Part shown: one piece after another, positions 16,429-21,232 of the stretch | Numbering within the stretch: the stretch's first letter is position 1 | How the letters are laid out: each line of letters begins with the position of its first letter | Assembly (NCBI GenBank): GCA_903900805.1 | Contig: CAIUOP010000055.1 | Location: forward strand, 1 to 64,000 | Reading direction: 5' to 3' | DNA length: 64,000 nt | From: an uncultured beta proteobacterium | Lineage (GTDB): Bacteria; Pseudomonadota; Gammaproteobacteria; Burkholderiales; Burkholderiaceae | Made by a program: the position numbers and the translations under genes | Notes under the pieces: generated by a model | Databases searched by the model: none | Told to the model about the DNA's origin: nothing | The model's input: only the letters and a program-made list of their open reading frames with translations

Positions 16429-17412
16429 ATGATCTCCACTACCAATCAACCCCTTGCCATTATTACTGGATCCTCTTCTGGTGTTGGTTTATATGCTGCA
16501 AAAGCCCTACTCGCTCGTAATTGGCGATTAATTCTGGCAGTTCGTAATCCGCAGAAAATGGAGCTAGCTGCCAAGGCACATCAATTTGATTCTAACCAAT
16601 ATGAAATCTGGCAATTAGACCTCGGTAATCTAGACAGTGTGAGAGCATTTGTGAAGCGCTTTAATGACAGCGGTCAAAAGCTCAATGCTTTACTCTGTAA
16701 TGCAGCCACTTACCTGCCGCTCTTAAAAGAACCATCGCGTTCGCCTCAAGGATTTGAGATCAGCGTTGCTACTAATTATTTTGGACACTATGTTCTGAGC
16801 AGAATGTTGCTAGAAAATTTAGTGCAGACTGCTAAAGCACATGAGCATGCTCGTCTCATTACCTTAGGCACTGTGACTGCTAACTCAGAAGAGTTTGGTG
16901 GCAAAGTGCCCATCCCTGCACCAGCTGATATTGGCGCACTAGAAGGCCTGATGGCTGGCTTTAAAGCACCGATCGCCATGATCAACGGTAAGCCGTTTAA
17001 ACCAGGCAAGGCCTACAAAGACAGTAAGTTATGTAATATGGTGATGAATCGTGAGCTGCAAAAAAGATATCACGCCAGTACGGGGGTGATCTTTAATACT
17101 TTATATCCTGGATGCGTAGCTGAGACAGCGCTCTTTAGAGATACGCCGCCACTCTTTCAGAAAATATTTCCTTGGTTTCAGAAGAACATTACTAAAGGGT
17201 ATGTGAGCCAAGAGCTTGCAGGTGATCGGGTCGCTCAAGTTGTAGCAGATCCGCACTTTACCCAATCAGGGGTTCATTGGAGCTGGGGTAATCGCAACTC
17301 AGCGATTAGAGAGCCTTTCGCTCAAGAGCTTTCGATGAAAGCCAAGAGCGAGAAGCTGAGTAAAGACCTCTGGGAAGTGACTGCCAAACTCGTTGGCATG
17401 CCCAGTGATTAA
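16429..17412 (+). CDS. Light-dependent protochlorophyllide oxidoreductase (LPOR, SDR family)
   Basis: GSSSGVG dinucleotide-binding motif, [17 protein letters not shown] active site, [19 protein letters not shown] and SGVHWSWGN blocks characteristic of plant/cyanobacterial POR. Confidence 0.92.
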
Positions 17413-17420
17413 GTAACTAC

Positions 17421-18326
17421 TTAGTCAAAGCCGAGTAAATCAAAGATATCCCGATCTTTCATGGGGATCGATGGCAATGGATCTGATCCGAGCCAGAGTG
17501 ACGCAGCCAAACGCATGTACTCTTGCTGGACTAATTCAAGTTCAGGAGAGTATTCCATTTCAAATAAGGTGGACTTTTTAAGACGGCTACGACGAATCAC
17601 ATCCAAGTCTGGGAAGTGAGCCATCGTCTTTAATCCAACTTGCGCATTAAATTTGTCGATTTGATCAGTATCTTTACTACGATTGGCAATTACACCACCT
17701 AAGCGGACATTGTAGTTTTTCGCTTTCGCGCCAATGGCCTGAATAATACGATTCATCGCAAAGATAGAATCAAAATCATTTGCAGTCACAATCAAGGCCC
17801 GATCTGCGTGCTGCAGAGGCGCAGCAAAGCCACCGCATACTACGTCACCCAAGACATCAAAGATCACGACATCGGTATCATCTAGCAAATGATGCTCTTT
17901 TAAGAGTTTGACAGTTTGTCCAACCACATAGCCACCGCAACCAGTTCCAGCTGGAGGGCCACCTGCTTCAACACACATCACACCGTTATAACCTTCATAA
18001 ACAAAGTCTTCAACGCGTAACTCTTCAGAATGAAAGTCCACCTTCTCCAGCACATCGATTACTGTCGGCATGAGTTTTTTGGTGAGAGTGAAGGTTGAGT
18101 CGTGTTTCGGATCGCAACCAATCTGAATGACGCGTTTACCTAATTTAGAAAAGGCGACTGAAAGGTTAGATGAGGTGGTGCTCTTACCAATACCCCCTTT
18201 GCCATAAATTGCAAAGACCTTGGCTTTACCAATTTTCAAATTCGGATCAAGCTGAACCTGCAGACTACCCTCACCATCCGGTGGTGCACTACGAGCATCT
18301 GAAATGGGTATGTTGATTGCTTTCAT
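17421..18326 (-). CDS. bchL: Dark-operative protochlorophyllide reductase iron protein
   Basis: NifH-like, [15 protein letters not shown]; downstream of bchNB. Confidence 0.95.
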
Positions 18327-18365
18327 TTTGAATTGCCTTTGCTATTGTTGACCTAACTTCATGGT

Positions 18366-19937
18366 TTAACTTTTAAAGTGCGCCTTTGCATCATACAAAG
18401 TTTCTAGGGTAATGCTTAAAAGGCCCTGCTCTACTGCATACTTCTCCGTATTTCGTCTGGCTTTGCCCCTGACAAAGAAGGGAATCTTATTGAGCTCTTT
18501 CTCTGCGTCCGTTTCCCAGGCAAGGGTTTGAGTGCCCAAATTGAGGTTAGGAGCGGTAATTTGCTCTGCTTCTGGCTTCATGGGAGCTGAGCTATGGCCT
18601 AGGTGCGATGGCATGGCGCCCTCATGAAACTCAAAGTCGCCTCTGAACATGCCAATCAAATGCTCCTCTAGACCCATCATCAATGGATGCACCCAAGAGT
18701 CAAACAAAACACAGGCACCTTCAAAACCCATTTGCGGGGAATAGCGCGCCGGAAAATCTTGTACATGCACTGGTGAAGAAATCACTGCGCAGGGAATCTG
18801 TAGGCGCTTAGCAATATGGCGCTCCATTTGCGTACCGAGAATTAATTCCGGTTGAAGCTCGGTGATCTTTGCCTCAACTTCCAAATAATCATCCGTAATC
18901 ATGGCTTCGAGCCCTAACTCGGTAGCAGCTTCACGCACTTCACGGGCTAATTCGCGGCTATAGGTTCCTAGTCCAACGACTTTGAAACCCATTTCATGGG
19001 CTGCTACTTTGGCGGCAGCAATTGCATGGGTCGCATCACCAAAAATAAAGACTCTTTTGTTAGTAAGGTAAGTTGAGTCCACTGATAAGGCGTACCAACG
19101 CGCTTTAGAGGATTGACTGAACTTTTGAACATCACATTCAATGCCGGCTAGCTGACAAACTTCAGTGATAAAAGCTTGCGTACCTTTAAATCCAATCGGA
19201 ATGGCTTTTGTAGAAGGCTGACCAAAACTTCTCGTCATCCAAGTGGCTGCAGTATTAGCTGTCTCAGGATATAAATTGACATTAAAGTCTGCTTCGTGCA
19301 AACGGGCAATGTCGGCTGGATTAGCGCCAAGCGGTGCAACGACATTGACTTCAATTCCTAGCTCGCGCAATAGGCGGGAGATTTCTTCAACGTCATCGCG
19401 ATGACGAAAGCCTAAAGCGGTAGGCCCCAAAATATTACAACTGGGTTTTGCGCCAGCTGCTCGAGCAGGACGCTGCTGGCCTGGGGGCAAAACAAATGCC
19501 TGACCTAGCAGGCGAACCATTTGATAAAAGGTTTCTGCTGCGCCCCAATTTTCTTTCTTTTGATAGGCGGGTAATTCCAGTGGCAAGATTGGGACTGGCA
19601 AATCGAGAGCAGCGGCTAAACCACCGGGGTCATCTTGAATGAGTTCTGCAGTACAAGAAGCGCCCACCATTAATAAGTCTGGCTTAAAACGGGCATACGC
19701 TGTTCTGGCAGCATCTTTAAATAATTCTGCAGTATCACTTCCTAAATCACGCGCCTGAAAGGTCGTATAAGTCACCGGCGGTCTTTTTTTCATCCGCTCA
19801 ATCATGGTGAACAGGAGATCTGCATAGGTATCGCCTTGTGGTGCATGTAAGACGTAATGCACCTTCTCCATTGCAGTAGCAATCCGCATGGCACCAACGT
19901 GGGGTGGCCCTTCATAAGTCCAGAGGGTTAACTTCAT
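18366..19937 (-). CDS. bchB: Dark-operative protochlorophyllide reductase subunit B
   Basis: 523 aa nitrogenase-like; start overlaps bchN stop. Confidence 0.95.
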
Positions 19938-21232
19938 GCCGTCTCCACCATCATGAGCTTATTCTTTCTCGTTAGAGGACGTGCAAACAATTCAGCTAGA
20001 TCAGCTGCTTGATTAAATCCTTGAATCGGGGTGAAGACCAGTTCAATTGACCACTTGGTCGTAAAGCCCTCAGCCTCTAATGGATTGGCTAGACCTAGGC
20101 CACAGACAACCATATCGGGCTGCTGTTCACGACAACGATCTAATTGGTTCTCGACGTTTTGGCCCTCAGCCAATTGCGTCTTGGGATCTAACATCGCTAA
20201 TTCTTCTGCCATATGCTGACGATGCAAGTATGGAACACCTACTTCCATCAGCTTCATCCCCAGCTCTCTATTTAAATAGCGCGCTAATGGGATTTCTAAT
20301 TGAGAATCCGGGAAGAAGAAAATCGATTTGCCTTTCAAGATCTCACGATGAGGCTCAAGTGACTTATTGGCGCGATCCCTTTGTGGGGCAATCACTTTTT
20401 CAAAGGTATCAGCAGGCACACCTAATTCTTTAGCGGCGGCCCAGAACCATTTCTCTGTTCCCTCTACCCCTAATGGGAAAGGTGCCGCTATTCGCTGGGC
20501 GCCCAGATTTTCTAGGAACCTGGCAGTATCGGTCAGAAATGGCTGCGCGAGCAAATATTTAGTCTTGGGACCAACCACAATTTTCTGCGTAGATTCCCTG
20601 GGCGGAAAAAAGGCAAAGGACTTTAAACCCAGGTCTTTAAAGATCCGACTAAATTGATCTTCCACCACATCAGCTAAGCAACCCACTACTAATAAATCAA
20701 GTTCGTCTGATTGGGTTGATTTAGGCAGATCTTGTACTAGCGCTGCTAAGCAGGCATCTTCGCCTTGGGTAAAAGTGGTTTCAATACCGCTGCCAGAGTA
20801 ATTGAGAATACGCACTTTAGGCGCAAAGGTTTTTCCAAGGCGCTGCGCTGCTCTAGATAAATCCAACTTAATCACTTCTGAGGGACATGAACCTACTAAA
20901 AATAGGAGCTTAATATCCGGACGGCGCTCGAGTAATTGTTTGACTACTTTATCCAGCTCATCATTAGCATCTGCCAGGCCGGCTAAATCACGATCATCAA
21001 TAATGGCAGTTGCAAAACGGGGCTCTGCAAAAATCATCACCCCCGCTGCAGACTGAATGAGGTGGGCACAGGTACGAGAACCCACTACTAGAAAAAAGGC
21101 ATCTTGAATTTTGCGATGCAACCAAATAATTCCAGTTAAGCCACAGAAAACCTCTCTCTGACCACGCTCTTTTAAAGGCTGGAAATTAATGGGTTGGGAA
21201 TCAACCACGACTTCTTGGGATACAGAATTCAA
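19934..21232 (-). CDS. bchN: Dark-operative protochlorophyllide reductase subunit N
   Basis: 432 aa nitrogenase-like; gene order. Confidence 0.95.

Follow-up and report, generated by a model that had tools for sequence, protein, structure and literature searches.

A light-dependent protochlorophyllide oxidoreductase gene convergent with bchLBN in a Polynucleobacter photosynthesis gene cluster

Light-dependent NADPH:protochlorophyllide oxidoreductase (LPOR) acts by light-driven hydride transfer from NADPH followed by proton donation in the active site and, to our knowledge, was long thought to be confined to oxygenic phototrophs. A survey published in 2020 reported 36 LPORs outside these organisms, naming Limnohabitans and Polynucleobacter among the bearers (Chernomor et al., 2020, PMC7947762). 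Ten of 11 LPORs from aerobic anoxygenic phototrophs (AAPB) tested in that study were active, several of them as judged by their ability to complement bchB-deleted R. capsulatus; none of those assayed was betaproteobacterial, and Burkholderiales were named as still to test. The enzyme was proposed to help bacteriochlorophyll synthesis under aerobic conditions (PMC7947762), and the oxygen-tolerance argument was repeated in a 2025 review (PMC12654162). No gene-order analysis of LPOR was found in the main text of the 2020 study. The central observation described here was thus already published (PMC7947762): LPOR occurs beside the nitrogenase-like BchNBL enzyme (DPOR) in aerobic anoxygenic phototrophs, among them Polynucleobacter. 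The novelty of the observation is low because the genus had been named as LPOR-bearing. What is new is the genus-wide distribution of LPOR, its fixed placement against bchL, a valine substitution at a conserved cysteine and the recurrence, most likely independent, of the gene order.

The window, that is, the whole 64-kb stretch analysed, is the first part of a 107-kb contig (C55) from a Polynucleobacter genome of 1.9 Mb that is 92% complete. The genus is inferred from LPOR (92–98%) and syntenic matches to named isolates of Polynucleobacter, P. campilacus and P. nymphae among them. The features of the photosynthesis cluster are as follows.

Within 215–7412, minus strand: bchZ, bchY, bchX and bchC (TIGR02014, TIGR02015, TIGR02016 and TIGR01202, above cut-off)
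Within 215–7412, minus strand: an O-methyltransferase, possibly crtF (PF00891), and a crtE-like polyprenyl synthase (PF00348)
7465–11283, minus strand: bchH, Mg chelatase subunit H (PRK13405, 2088 bits)
11493–12590, plus strand: bchI, Mg chelatase (TIGR02030, 511 bits)
12639–14549, plus strand: bchD, Mg chelatase (PRK13406, 680 bits)
14567–15424, minus strand: bchO (TIGR03056, 175.6 bits, cut-off 172.6)
15428–16354, minus strand: alpha/beta hydrolase, not BchO (PF00561, 120 bits; synteny)
16355–16428, no strand: divergent intergenic region of 74 bp between the hydrolase and LPOR, a candidate promoter region (conserved blocks)
16429–17412, plus strand: LPOR, 327 aa, ATG start (TIGR01289, tree, residues, dN/dS)
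17421–18326, minus strand: bchL, DPOR iron-sulfur ATPase subunit, 301 aa (TIGR01281, 449 bits)
18366–19937, minus strand: bchB, DPOR subunit B, 523 aa (TIGR01278, 620 bits)
19934–21232, minus strand: bchN, DPOR subunit N, 432 aa (PRK02842, 622 bits; TIGR01279, 513 bits)

Genes for pufL, pufM and pufC and for carotenoid synthesis lie on another contig of the same genome. Aerobic anoxygenic phototrophs have been delimited by the presence of DPOR, a type II reaction centre and AcsF or BchE, together with the absence of RuBisCO and PRK (PMC7947762); of these traits the window genome has DPOR and pufM/pufC, and the window ORFs scanned included no acsF, the gene of the oxygen-dependent cyclase whose presence would point firmly to an aerobic pathway. 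Rfam gave no match between 14000 and 24000. Elsewhere in the window, 30036–30618 holds a likely HigBA pair, made up of a HigA-family antitoxin gene (TIGR02607) and a small ORF upstream of it, and 39492–41284 an error-prone polymerase V operon in which umuC is preceded by a small ORF, probably umuD.

The ORF at 16429–17412 matches the LPOR equivalog model TIGR01289 (EC 1.3.1.33) at 446 bits, against a cut-off of 331.35, over model positions 3–314 of 315, and its nearest solved structures are cyanobacterial LPORs (6l1h/6rnv and 6r46/6r48); against the T. elongatus structures 6l1h/6rnv it scores about 420 bits across 319 residues. The NADPH motif TGSSSGVG (residues 13–20) and the catalytic Y196 and K200 (YxxxK) are present; these motifs and the Cys226 equivalent are kept in all Polynucleobacter sequences covering the positions. 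Every POR motif quoted in the earlier note was found, and the reading frame is intact. Since LPOR belongs to the SDR superfamily and the ORF also has weaker matches to generic SDR models, a short-chain dehydrogenase merely resembling LPOR has to be considered; it is extremely improbable, as the best generic model reaches only 114 bits (the second-best family), the SDR paralogues of the same genome are only 25–28% identical, and the LPOR-specific blocks and the Cys226 equivalent are retained. A placement among generic SDRs, which the earlier note had named as refuting its reading, was not obtained: the protein falls within the LPOR tree, where it belongs to an anoxygenic-phototroph clade supported at 100/98, and a generic SDR identity was rejected on score and tree. 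By these sequence measures the ORF is confirmed as encoding a genuine LPOR.

Four LPOR cysteines, supposed to take part in substrate binding, were highlighted in 2020 (PMC7947762). The window protein has C90, C202 and C229, and the first conserved cysteine (C37 in T. elongatus numbering) is replaced by V38. Valine occupies this position in 26/26 aligned Polynucleobacter LPORs, and cysteine in 12/12 alphaproteobacterial and 87 of the 100 cyanobacterial sequences; the remaining 13 cyanobacterial sequences, every one picocyanobacterial, have asparagine. Half of the alphaproteobacterial sequences have Leu at position 89 and Ala at position 199. The sole cysteine invariant across all groups is C226 (C229 in the window protein), so possession of all four is not a defining trait of the LPOR family, and the others look dispensable in the family, given the asparagine in picocyanobacteria and the Leu and Ala in alphaproteobacteria. 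A statement that all features are conserved is, on these alignments, too broad for anoxygenic LPORs, and the C37V substitution is by itself no argument against LPOR function.

The genus-wide valine, together with the fact that 52 of the 79 DPOR-bearing Polynucleobacter genomes do without LPOR, could nevertheless suggest a protein that is LPOR by descent with its function lost or changed, either as a C37V variant or as a relic made redundant by DPOR. This is very unlikely: besides the natural variation at the same and at two other cysteine positions, dN/dS of LPOR against its relatives is 0.025–0.036, as strict as that of bchB (0.011–0.040), which points to a maintained protein, and the ORF is intact in nearly all LPOR-bearing Polynucleobacter genomes. 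A maintained, functional LPOR is the preferred reading.

The neighbouring DPOR genes are complete, as the earlier note had stated, and all lie on the minus strand. Residues Cys130 and Cys164 and the P-loop GKGGIGKST are present in bchL, Asp36 and Cys95 in bchB, and Cys30, Cys55 and Cys116 in bchN, so that the cluster-ligand residues, with roles as in R. capsulatus DPOR, are in place in all three subunits. The proposal that both routes of protochlorophyllide reduction are encoded together is thus borne out, with LPOR and DPOR both appearing intact.

Among 186 Polynucleobacter genomes surveyed, in which LPOR was counted above the cut-off, BchB occurs in 79, PufM in 78 and LPOR in 27. All LPOR-bearing genomes have DPOR (BchB, 27/27) and nearly all have pufM (26/27), compared with DPOR in 52/159 genomes without LPOR (Fisher p = 4e-12, related genomes being counted as independent); LPOR in this genus is accordingly an accessory to the photosynthesis cluster and never a substitute for DPOR. 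In a tree of BchL, BchB and BchN, LPOR is found throughout one cluster lineage (12 sequences, 100/100) and is scattered in two others, which forces at least five changes of LPOR presence, gains and losses not being told apart. Wider samples gave LPOR in 2/399 Burkholderiales (the window genome among them), in 1/399 Pseudomonadota (the window genome itself) and in 3/151, 1/150 and 1/150 genomes from the orders of three alphaproteobacterial LPOR hosts, each count including the seeding host. The description of LPOR as uncommon in the earlier note therefore holds for Burkholderiales and for the phylum but not within this Polynucleobacter cluster lineage, where LPOR is universal. Carriage by phages or plasmids was also considered and rejected: phage records and viral contigs gave no LPOR match, and plasmid-borne copies were found only in D. 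shibae and Pseudanabaena.

The LPOR tree comprised 82 sequences: 56 cyanobacterial (including T. elongatus), 12 alphaproteobacterial (including D. shibae), 12 from Polynucleobacter, one gemmatimonad and one from another Burkholderiales genome. The anoxygenic sequences form a single clade, within which Polynucleobacter is a clade of its own (100/100); the window LPOR is monophyletic with the alphaproteobacterial and gemmatimonad LPORs and the cyanobacteria stand apart, being split off by a branch in 100% of the 200 bootstrap trees. In the best tree the anoxygenic clade joins a Synechococcales MAG, bin31 (L027; 98/96), and then Chamaesiphon. The relatives L041 and L042 of this MAG share its LPOR neighbourhood, with cdaA upstream in L027 and L042 and same-sized neighbours in L041. 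A picocyanobacterial donor was favoured in 83 of 100 trees in the 2020 study (PMC7947762), and a join of the anoxygenic LPORs to picocyanobacteria is not rejected here by the AU test (p 0.35); for LPOR alone, a picocyanobacterial sister is possible on this evidence. Incongruence between LPOR and DPOR trees within Polynucleobacter is suggested but not significant (AU p 0.30). The gemmatimonad LPOR (L053) nests among Sphingomonadales LPORs (with L048, Sandarakinorhabdus; 98/89) and not with Polynucleobacter; similarity to betaproteobacterial LPORs was reported in 2020 (PMC7947762). Taken together, the window very probably carries a working LPOR beside DPOR, fixed in one Polynucleobacter cluster lineage; that the protein belongs to the lineage shared by AAPB, ultimately of cyanobacterial origin, is part of this explanation, and the strong confidence expressed applies to the explanation as a whole.

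LPOR and bchL are convergent, with stop codons separated by the 8 bp (17413–17420) given in the earlier note. The layout of the window (bchI-bchD; bchO-hydrolase; LPOR; bchL-bchB-bchN) is shared, as far as contigs extend, by 20 of the 27 LPOR genomes, in which the spacing between the two stop codons is 8–45 bp and the conserved divergent region upstream of LPOR measures 60–74 bp. Four of the 27 have the arrangement bchH, hydrolase, LPOR-bchI-bchD, and in three LPOR lies away from the DPOR genes. Misassembly or contamination was rejected, and the adjacency of LPOR and bchL is no assembly accident, because about 20 further Polynucleobacter genomes, isolates and single-contig chromosomes among them, show identical synteny. 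Alphaproteobacterial, gemmatimonad and other betaproteobacterial LPOR loci showed no bch gene in up to 8 kb per side, some of these stretches being much shorter.

A convergent arrangement of LPOR and chlL-chlB-chlN also occurs in eight picocyanobacterial loci, with a gap between aligned ends of 17–81 bp in four of them, and is absent from the other cyanobacterial loci with at least 2 kb downstream. In these eight (L057, L064, L072, L074, L075, L081, L164 and L165) LPOR converges with chlL, followed by chlB and chlN where the contig reaches. Such a restricted occurrence, and the picocyanobacterial LPOR donor favoured in 2020 (PMC7947762), would fit the acquisition of LPOR and chlLBN as a single block from picocyanobacteria, which would explain the identical convergent order. 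In a DPOR tree that also includes alpha-, gamma- and picocyanobacterial sequences, however, the window DPOR groups with other Polynucleobacter DPORs (100/99–100), and forcing it to picocyanobacteria is rejected (p-AU 7e-8); moreover, DPOR genes do not adjoin LPOR in the other Polynucleobacter lineages or in alphaproteobacteria. The DPOR part of a block transfer is thereby rejected and the scenario is barely credible. As the Polynucleobacter DPOR is not of picocyanobacterial origin, the convergent layout most likely had a separate origin in each group. A bolder version, in which the Polynucleobacter LPOR is a distinct sub-variant marked by valine for the first cysteine and its gene moved secondarily to the 3' end of bchLBN in this lineage, arriving at the picocyanobacterial layout on its own, is doubtful. 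If true, it would suggest selection for encoding the light and dark enzymes convergently and close together, perhaps because transcripts overlapping at their 3' ends allow one route to damp the other.

Of 14 loci orthologous to the region between the hydrolase and LPOR (16355–16428), nearly all retain the blocks GCCTTAAAATGACAA and CTAAGACTGTAATAGAAAA; comparison of these loci revealed no clear Shine-Dalgarno sequence ahead of the LPOR ATG. Palindromes of the PpsR/CrtJ type (TGTN12ACA) occur upstream of bchC (5217–5234) and between bchH and bchI (11383–11400), their number across the window being not above chance. None lies in 16355–16428, and PpsR-like control of LPOR was rejected on that ground. 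In two of the three Polynucleobacter LPOR contexts the alpha/beta hydrolase gene lies next to LPOR and diverges from it; a role of the hydrolase as obligate partner was discarded, as orthologues (46–56% identical, one 82%) exist in LPOR-less genomes. The 82% copy belongs to a DPOR-bearing, LPOR-less genome (G115; L224), about 37 kb from bchB, and no LPOR relic was found in the 20 kb around it.

In the proposed scheme LPOR would, in the light and with NADPH, reduce protochlorophyllide at its C17=C18 double bond to give chlorophyllide, which would proceed towards bacteriochlorophyll a via the bchXYZ and bchC products of the same cluster, and BchNBL would carry out the same reduction without light in an oxygen-sensitive manner. 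The cell would thus possess, in one cluster, a route that needs light and tolerates oxygen and another that works in the dark at low oxygen, with LPOR apparently fixed in one photosynthesis-cluster lineage at a site convergent with bchLBN. It is reasonable to infer an adaptation of bacteriochlorophyll synthesis to oxic, lit freshwater. That LPOR has spread to heterotrophs of fresh water is relevant to bacteriochlorophyll synthesis in oxygenated surface water. The genus Polynucleobacter is widespread in fresh water, can be cultured and has phototrophic members with and without LPOR, and for this reason offers a natural system to assess what LPOR is worth to a DPOR-bearing cell; the recurrent convergent order poses a small, testable puzzle on the coordination of both routes.

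Compared with known systems, the window LPOR aligns end to end with that of T. elongatus (6l1h, 6rnv) and has identical catalytic residues, differing in Val38 for C37 and in P240 for F237, the proline being present in all anoxygenic-phototroph LPORs examined. The functionally proven LPOR of D. shibae is 61.5% identical and belongs to the same clade; its gene is on plasmid pDSHI05 with no bch gene within 6 kb, whereas the window gene adjoins bchL. The picocyanobacterial por/chlL-chlB-chlN cluster has the same convergent order and close spacing, but its LPOR is 48–60% identical to that of the window, has Asn rather than Val at the first cysteine position in most cases, and accompanies DPOR genes of separate descent. 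The AAPB LPORs of Chernomor et al. (2020, PMC7947762), those of Limnohabitans and Polynucleobacter included, share family, clade, co-occurrence with BchNBL and genus with the window LPOR; to that set the window adds a further species, the genus-wide valine for the first cysteine and the place of the gene against bchL.
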